Assembly: GCA_016931415.1 (NCBI GenBank)
Contig: JAFGEW010000076.1
Coordinates: 1 to 64,000, forward strand
Source of the DNA: Verrucomicrobiota bacterium
Lineage (GTDB): Bacteria; Auribacterota; JABMQX01; JAFGEW01
Length of the DNA stretch: 64,000 nt
Direction: 5' to 3'
Below the pieces are notes generated by a model that ran no database searches, was not told the origin of the DNA, and saw only the letters and a list, made by a program, of their open reading frames with translations. The position numbers and the translations under genes are program-made. Of this stretch, positions 55,810-57,679 are shown piece by piece (positions within the stretch are counted from its first letter, which is position 1; every line of letters starts with the position of its first letter).

Positions 55810-56067
55810 GTGTTGTCTTCCTCCTCCTCCGTTCGGGCCTTTCTGGGCGGTCCGGCGGGTCCTCATGTGGGTCGGCGGCCCCCTGGCCGTTGCGCGCCGG
55901 TGTGGGTGTGGACGCCCGGCGTGCGCAAACCAATAAGCTAGGACGGCCGGTCTAGCTTTTCAACACGAAACGGCCAGCGTGCCCGGGGTGGGTGCGAGGA
56001 GCGTTGCGCGCCGAGCGCGGTATCGGATAGGATGGCGAGCGGCGGCGCTCCCGCCGAGGAGCTTGAT

Positions 56068-57420
56068 ATGCCCCTGCTGGCGAAATACCTGACGGCTGAC
56101 CGCGTCGTGGATCTATCGAGCCGCGACAAGGCCGGCGCGATCCGCGAACTCGCGGCGGCTGCGGCGCGCTCGACCGATGGCCTGGACGCGGCACATATCG
56201 CCGAGCGGGTATTCGAGCGCGAAGCGCTCATTACAACCCGTGTGGGCGACGCCGTGGCCTTGCCGCACGCCCGGTTGGCGATGGGCCCCGAGGCGGTCCT
56301 TGCCGTAGGCCGGAGCGTGGCCGGGGTGGACTACGATGACGACAACCCGGCACCGGTGCGGCTGCTCGCGCTGCTGTTGGTCGACGAGCGGCGGCCTGAG
56401 TTGGCGCTCACGCTGCTCTCGGCGCTCGGGCGGCGGCTGCGCGATGAGAGGCTTCGCAACCGGCTGATCGAGACGGCCGACCCGGCACGCTTCGCCGAGC
56501 TGCTCGATGCCGGTGTGCCGCGCGAGGAGGCGCAATCGCCCGGCGTGGCCCCCGAGCTGTCAGCGCTTACGCTAAGGCACGCCGTCGAAGCCGCGCGAGA
56601 ATCCGGCGCGGCTGCCGCGATTATCTGCGTGGACGCCGAGACCGAGATCGACGCCGTACTCGACGCCGACTGGCCTGTGCCCGTCATCATCGCCGGCCAG
56701 GATCTCAAGCTTCCTGATGACAGCGAGCGCCGGACCCACCAGACGGTCCTGCTGCCGGCGCCTGGACGCAACCGGACCGACTCGGTCCGCCTGGGCCTGC
56801 TCATGTGCGTGGCCCAGCGGCTCGTCGGGCGACACGACGTGGTGGTGGCGCTGAGCGGCCCGCCGCACTCGGGCTGGCTCGACACGCTGCTGTTGACGCG
56901 CGTGGGCGATGAGCTTGGCGCGCTGAGCGACGCGTGGGTCTCCGACATCGCCGTGGACATCCGGCCCGCCGTACTCGAGCGGCTCGTCGAGATCGCAACC
57001 TCGCTCGGGCGTGAGGGCCGCGAGGGGCGCTCGGTCGGCACGATCTTCATTGTGGGCGACTCCGAGCGGGTGCTCGCCCAGTCGCACCAGCTCATCATCA
57101 ACCCATTCCGCGGCTACGACGAGAACGACCTCAATATTCTTGATCCCCGCCTCGAGGAGACGATCAAGGAGCTCGCTGCCGTTGATGGCGCCTTCATCGT
57201 GCGCGGCGACGGCGTGCTCCTCTCGGCCGGCACCTACCTGCGTCCGGTCACACAGGGCGAGCCGCTCCCCTCGGGCCTGGGTACACGGCACGCCGTGGCC
57301 GCCGCGACCAGCGCCTCGACGGCCGCGTTGGCCATTGTCGTGTCCGAGTCGTCGGGCGCGGTCACCGTGTTCCACGACGGGCGCGCGCTCATCTCCCTCA
57401 GCAGGTCGGCCGCGGGGTAA
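56068..57420 (+). CDS. Diadenylate cyclase (DisA_N domain) with N-terminal PTS EIIA type-2 domain
   Basis: 450 residues. Residues 1 to about 155 match the PTS EIIA (fructose/nitrogen) domain, with the phospho-histidine site ALPHAR at His67. Residues about 170-300 resemble the pyruvate-kinase C-terminal-like domain that precedes the cyclase in archaeal DacZ-type enzymes. The C-terminal DAC domain shows the DGAFIVRGDG motif (Asp373) and GTRHAVAAATS (Arg407, His408), the two blocks that bind ATP and metal for c-di-AMP synthesis; the usual RHR is RHA here. The start at 56068 has GAGGAG 7 bases upstream. A PTS-regulated c-di-AMP synthase is implied. Confidence 0.8.
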   Translation: MPLLAKYLTADRVVDLSSRDKAGAIRELAAAAARSTDGLDAAHIAERVFEREALITTRVGDAVALPHARLAMGPEAVLAVGRSVAGVDYDDDNPAPVRLLALLLVDERRPELALTLLSALGRRLRDERLRNRLIETADPARFAELLDAGVPREEAQSPGVAPELSALTLRHAVEAARESGAAAAIICVDAETEIDAVLDADWPVPVIIAGQDLKLPDDSERRTHQTVLLPAPGRNRTDSVRLGLLMCVAQRLVGRHDVVVALSGPPHSGWLDTLLLTRVGDELGALSDAWVSDIAVDIRPAVLERLVEIATSLGREGREGRSVGTIFIVGDSERVLAQSHQLIINPFRGYDENDLNILDPRLEETIKELAAVDGAFIVRGDGVLLSAGTYLRPVTQGEPLPSGLGTRHAVAAATSASTAALAIVVSESSGAVTVFHDGRALISLSRSAAG

Positions 57421-57466: not shown

Positions 57467-57679
57467 GTGAAGATCGTCCTGGAGAAGGTTACGCCTGAGA
57501 CGCTGGCGAGGTACCTCGAGAACAAGGCGCTGCGCATCTACGGCATCACGCCGGTCTCCGAGGGCTACAAGCCCAACGTCGAGGAGGAGATGCGCACCTC
57601 CTACAACGTCGAGATCCTTGTGCTCGGCAAGCTCAAGCAGCAGTTCGCCGACCTGCTCGAAGGCAGACCCGCCAAGTAG
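57467..57679 (+). CDS. Small protein of unknown function, downstream of the cyclase
   Basis: 70 residues from a GTG with AGGAG 8 bases upstream, 47 bases after the cyclase gene. Sequence begins VKIVLEKVTPETLARYLENKALRIYGITPV and is a small alpha/beta protein without signal peptide (given as three pieces: VKIVLEKVTP, ETLARYLENK, ALRIYGITPV). Charged and well-formed codons support a real gene. I do not recognise the family. It could be a regulator or a partner of the cyclase. Confidence 0.65.
   Translation: MKIVLEKVTPETLARYLENKALRIYGITPVSEGYKPNVEEEMRTSYNVEILVLGKLKQQFADLLEGRPAK

Follow-up and report, generated by a model that had tools for sequence, protein, structure and literature searches.

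To our knowledge, input signals have been identified for only a minority of diadenylate cyclases. These enzymes depend on face-to-face pairing of their DAC domains for activity. One class, DacD, is reportedly drawn as an EIIA-bearing DAC class in a 2013 review by Corrigan and Gruendling, and a 2023 census of DAC architectures by Galperin very likely covers the EIIA-DAC class as well.

An appendix figure legend in a 2019 study (PMC6741144) names five DacD members, from Lacunisphaera, Puniceicoccaceae, Coraliomargarita, a Verrucomicrobia bacterium, and an Opitutae bacterium. All members sampled there belong to the Opitutae/Verrucomicrobia, and the legend does not give their domain make-up. The same study reports that DacZ of H. 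volcanii, a member of a related class, makes c-di-AMP, and it models the N-termini of DacZ proteins as a pyruvate-kinase C-terminal fold (PMC6741144). In the nitrogen-related phosphotransferase system (PTS-Ntr), unphosphorylated EIIANtr binds and activates KdpD, and through this contact EIIA controls K+ uptake (PMC9239096). Uptake of K+ is also controlled by c-di-AMP (PMC6488665).

Here we describe a gene in a 64,000-nucleotide stretch of DNA (the window) whose product carries both kinds of domain in one chain. Our preferred reading, judged from sequence, is that the gene product is a soluble enzyme of DacZ-like lineage that makes c-di-AMP and carries a built-in N-terminal EIIA(Ntr/Fru) domain, making it a member of the EIIA-DacZ_P-DAC (DacD) family. 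We assign a probability of about 0.65 to this reading as a whole, with PTS phospho-control of the cyclase included.

Gene and domain architecture

The gene is a single intact open reading frame (56068-57420, +) of 450 codons plus a stop codon. The list of open reading frames begins it at an alternative ATG, 56032, which is 12 codons further upstream. We favor the start at 56068 because GAGGAG lies 6 nucleotides upstream and because the N-termini of relatives (MRLDKYI...) agree with it. Codon-position bias is strong (GC1 0.76, GC2 0.49, GC3 0.86), and GC3 is even through every domain and the linker. The neighboring genes code for an NPCBM-domain protein, a 70-amino-acid product, and an AMP-binding ligase, and they give no pointer to the function of the fusion protein. 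The 70-amino-acid ORF (57467-57679, +) is located directly 3' of the fusion gene, lacks a Pfam match, and is preceded by a plausible ribosome-binding site. It is possibly co-transcribed with the fusion gene.

Table 1. Features of the fusion gene and its product (positions are those of the window).
Feature	Positions	Strand	Evidence
EIIA-DacZ_P-DAC fusion protein, DacD-type diadenylate cyclase, 450 aa	56068..57420	+	ORF, Pfam, 65 full-length relatives
GAGGAG, likely ribosome-binding site	56056..56061	+	direct sequence reading; 6 nt 5' of ATG 56068
PTS EIIA type-2 domain (PTS_EIIA_2, PF00359), residues 14-147	56107..56508	+	63.0 bits vs cut-off 27; E 3.9e-17
His67, predicted phosphorylation site in ALPHAR (LPHAR)	56266..56268	+	invariant in 32/32 fused proteins
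DacZ_P domain (PF21755; pyruvate-kinase-C-related), residues 168-284	56569..56919	+	53.3 bits vs cut-off 27.4
DAC diadenylate cyclase domain (PF02457), residues 315-439	57010..57384	+	69.4 bits vs cut-off 27
DGA motif, residues 373-375	57184..57192	+	invariant across fused family
RHA motif (RHR position; GTRHAVAAA), residues 407-409	57286..57294	+	R and H the same in all fused proteins; third residue varies

When the protein is scored against the curated Pfam cut-offs, EIIA_2, DacZ_P, and DAC are each found above threshold in one chain and in that order (Table 1). The family profile also matches solved EIIANtr/PtsN structures (E 5e-21), and His67 falls within the stretch that corresponds to the EIIANtr active site in solved structures of PtsN. 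On the basis of these profile matches, the N-terminal domain is predicted to adopt the EIIA fold; a structure prediction from an alignment with one relative was of too low confidence to bear on it (pLDDT 45, pTM 0.36). For the central domain, PF02887 (PK_C) scores below threshold, and the fused-family profile gives a match to the solved pyruvate kinase 3eoe over positions 165-267 (E 3e-4), in line with the modeling of DacZ N-termini (PMC6741144).

An alignment of 32 fused proteins reveals that the EIIA site residues Glu52, Thr57, Pro66, His67, and Arg69 are invariant and that Arg51 is kept in all but one (31/32). Invariance extends to DGA, Arg407, and His408 on the cyclase side, and to two further motifs, GREG and NPFxGY. 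The original prediction had proposed the start at 56068, an EIIA type-2 domain with the phospho-histidine His67 of ALPHAR, a pyruvate-kinase-C-like domain as in DacZ enzymes, and a DAC cyclase domain. The start is backed by GAGGAG and the N-termini of relatives, and the first and last domains are borne out by their Pfam scores together with the invariant His67 and the intact DGA and Arg-His residues. The description of the central domain was right in substance, given its DacZ_P score and the match to 3eoe.

An apparently regulatory PTS and proposed control of the cyclase

It had also been suggested in the original prediction that the genome be searched for EI and HPr genes, and both were found together with HPr kinase. 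One contig (C50; L046:7707-11361, -) carries genes for a ribosome hibernation factor, HPr kinase/phosphorylase, HPr, and EI on one strand in that order, and by eye the HPr has the His (GLHARPAS) and Ser (NAKSI) phospho-sites. A search of the genome for PTS_EIIC (PF02378) found none, and the same search was positive in 7 of 14 control genomes. Seven EIIA_2 domains are encoded, that of the fusion protein among them. One forms the C-terminal part of an AA_permease_2 amino-acid permease (contig C106; L047:3370-5259, -) and keeps an IPH motif, and two are in HTH_17-EIIA_2 proteins that are apparent DNA-binding regulators (contig C41, L008:1222-1947, +; contig C101, L009:1126-1941, +). The others appear free-standing or nearly so. 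EIIA thus serves in this genome as a regulatory add-on that is repeatedly fused to outputs, and the PTS itself looks to be regulatory only.

There are three DAC genes in the genome. In addition to the fusion, these are a CdaA-type gene (contig C105) and a second DacZ-type cyclase gene (contig C27; L002:1429-2613, -) whose product has no EIIA and carries about 90 extra N-terminal residues. With two other predicted producers of c-di-AMP encoded, the fusion enzyme may contribute only a small share of the total.

Control of c-di-AMP synthesis by PTS phosphorylation is plausible because EI, HPr, and HPr kinase are present, His67 is invariant, and EIIA is joined to other outputs in the same genome. 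Phosphate would travel from PEP to EI, then to HPr, and then to His67 of the built-in EIIA, and HPr kinase would gate this phosphorylation. The phosphate need not pass on to a sugar, since no PTS_EIIC permease was found, and the level of phosphorylation would report the PEP/pyruvate balance. The state of His67 would in turn alter contacts among EIIA, DacZ_P, and DAC, or the way in which DAC domains pair, and thereby determine how much c-di-AMP is made. The PK_C-like DacZ_P domain might provide a second, ligand-sensing input. We infer that the protein has cyclase activity, is phosphorylated by HPr, and is subject to phospho-control, and that carbon/nitrogen status could be the input signal.

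From sequence, the best case for a role of phosphorylation is that the phospho-site is invariant even though the window protein is only 31-35% identical to the 14 family members aligned with it, which argues for retention of phosphorylation in the family. For the sign of the control, on which the sequence is silent, PTS-Ntr offers an analogy. There the unphosphorylated EIIA contacts KdpD, and we lean weakly toward the unphosphorylated form as the one that would restrain or alter the cyclase. A possible link of the fusion protein to potassium is attractive, since EIIANtr and c-di-AMP each act on K+ uptake. It is a more tentative and somewhat doubtful proposal that, if the PTS of this lineage serves regulation alone, the protein might turn the PEP:pyruvate ratio directly into a c-di-AMP level and in this way join PTS-Ntr and c-di-AMP.

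TrkA_C domains, which are common c-di-AMP targets, are encoded at five sites in this genome. Their presence is compatible with an alternative in which the cyclase is active and EIIA does not control catalysis. The domain might instead serve in docking, localization, or dimerization, as a phosphate buffer, or as a PtsN-like partner, for example of K+ transporters, and partner binding, for example to KdpD, is indeed how unphosphorylated EIIANtr acts (PMC9239096). However, EIIA and DAC are separated by DacZ_P at a spacing that is conserved in all aligned family members, and a permanent 1:1 fusion kept across many genera suggests coupling. We therefore regard a non-controlling EIIA as unlikely, and continue to prefer phospho-control of the cyclase.

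A less probable alternative is that the protein is a degenerate cyclase that has kept its fold and lost its activity through RHA in place of the RHR of CdaA and DisA. The original prediction had remarked on this substitution, and the motif is indeed present, but RHA proves to be the norm of the family rather than an oddity. Its third residue is Ala in 29 of the 32 fused proteins, eleven different residues (A/Y/M/I/R/V and others) occupy the position in 30 EIIA-free DacZ-type relatives, and one haloarchaeal DacZ has RHH. Because the third position varies freely among DacZ-type cyclases, RHA is no mark of an unusual or dead enzyme, and the idea was rejected by this comparison with 62 relatives. 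Moreover, DGA, R407, H408, and the remaining residues that are invariant in the family are all kept, and the DacZ class includes a proven maker of c-di-AMP (PMC6741144). Loss of activity is accordingly improbable.

Distribution and origin of the fusion

Among 44 genomes of the window's own phylum, a DacZ-type relative is present in nine and the fusion only in the window's genome. A set of 386 genomes spread over many families yielded one more full-length fusion. In the phylum to which that example belongs, 65 of 388 genomes carry a full-length fusion, and these span many genera in roughly a dozen families. A survey of the architecture across phyla had been suggested at the outset, and its result is that the fusion is conserved in another large phylum. 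From the DacD list and gene content, the 65 fusion-bearing genomes would appear to be Verrucomicrobiota (Opitutae and kin). In a fourth phylum, DacZ-type relatives occur in 155 of 195 genomes, with none fused among the matches listed. A Pfam scan of 15 family members found EIIA and DAC in every one and all three domains in 14. No relative was found in phages and viral contigs, plasmids returned haloarchaeal DacZ only, and a single-sequence search of genome contigs returned one relative only, which is EIIA-free.

Some gene neighborhoods of relatives were also recorded. In the phylum with 65 fusion-bearing genomes, a nuoA-like gene (assigned by eye) is located directly upstream of EIIA-DAC in several fused relatives (L097:1098-1472, +; also L082, L089, and L104). 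In another genome (G074; L051:2016-5942, +), the gene for an EIIA-free DacZ-type cyclase comes after dnaK and dnaJ (also assigned by eye), and this gene order is a possible link to stress.

In a tree of the EIIA part, the window protein groups with the fused family (support 90/86). In a tree of the cyclase part, the group of all fusions is weak (83/23), the window protein groups with four divergent fusions at 95/84, and branches are long. The cyclase tree also places the window protein apart from the EIIA-free DacZ paralog of its own genome, and a grouping of these two proteins is rejected (p-AU 0.028). Because the EIIA and cyclase trees independently agree and because domain order and spacing are shared, the data indicate that the fusion arose once and then either was transferred to the window's lineage or survived there as a lone member.

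A recent and independent fusion in the window's lineage would have had material at hand, as the genome holds both an EIIA-free DacZ and several EIIA domains, and it would account for the lack of a fusion in the other 43 genomes of the phylum. However, in both domain trees the window protein falls with the fused proteins, even if its exact place is unsure given the long branches, the grouping with its own DacZ is the one rejected above, and the N-terminus, domain order, and linker all match the family, such that a homemade fusion is very unlikely. An assembly chimera of two genes is hardly credible, for although the metagenome-assembled genome is split into 134 contigs, is estimated to be 4.5% contaminated, and has the only fusion in the phylum, the gene is one unbroken frame with uniform GC3 through the linker, lies on a contig of at least 64 kb, and has relatives of the same architecture that include some from single-contig genomes.

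Relationship to known systems

Few cyclases allow a specific upstream input to be read from sequence, and those that contain an EIIA domain, with PTS phosphotransfer as the input, are among them. If the proposed control is true, the protein would tie carbon/nitrogen status to c-di-AMP, and hence to potassium and turgor, and it would physically join PTS-Ntr and c-di-AMP, two bacterial systems that both act on potassium uptake. The protein described here is a lone member from beyond the main clade. The PTS of its genome is seemingly regulatory only, which makes for a cleaner setting for the hypothesis.

Matches to NCBIfam models (DacZ, fructose IIA, and PtsN) are concordant with the domain assignments, and all score under their cut-offs. 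The haloarchaeal DacZ equivalog NF041371 gives 124.7 bits against a cut-off of 430, and the PtsN equivalog TIGR01419 gives 46.7 bits against 138.7. Thus, the protein is DacZ-like and PtsN-like and is an equivalog of neither.

Judging by taxonomy and by the EIIA domain reported for DacD, the EIIA-DacZ_P-DAC family is very probably the published DacD class. DacD, which among the members sampled in the figure legend is confined to Opitutae/Verrucomicrobia, resembles the large clade of EIIA-DacZ_P-DAC proteins found here in many families, whereas the window protein comes from another phylum and has diverged to the identity given above for its 14 aligned relatives. The DacZ/DacY(CdaZ) enzymes of archaea and the DacZ-like bacterial cyclases are alike in having a PK_C-related N-terminal domain followed by DAC, and they share the DGA and GLGxRH motifs with the fusion protein, but they are without EIIA. 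EIIANtr (PtsN) and EIIAFru have the PTS_EIIA_2 fold that is matched by profile here, as well as the conserved Arg-Glu and PHxR site, but they are not joined to a cyclase. The HTH_17-EIIA and AA_permease-EIIA proteins of the same genome likewise join EIIA_2 to an output or transport domain, although their output is transcription or transport whereas that of the fusion protein is second-messenger synthesis. The fusion is therefore no new invention, but an outlying member of a family that is already conserved and probably already named.
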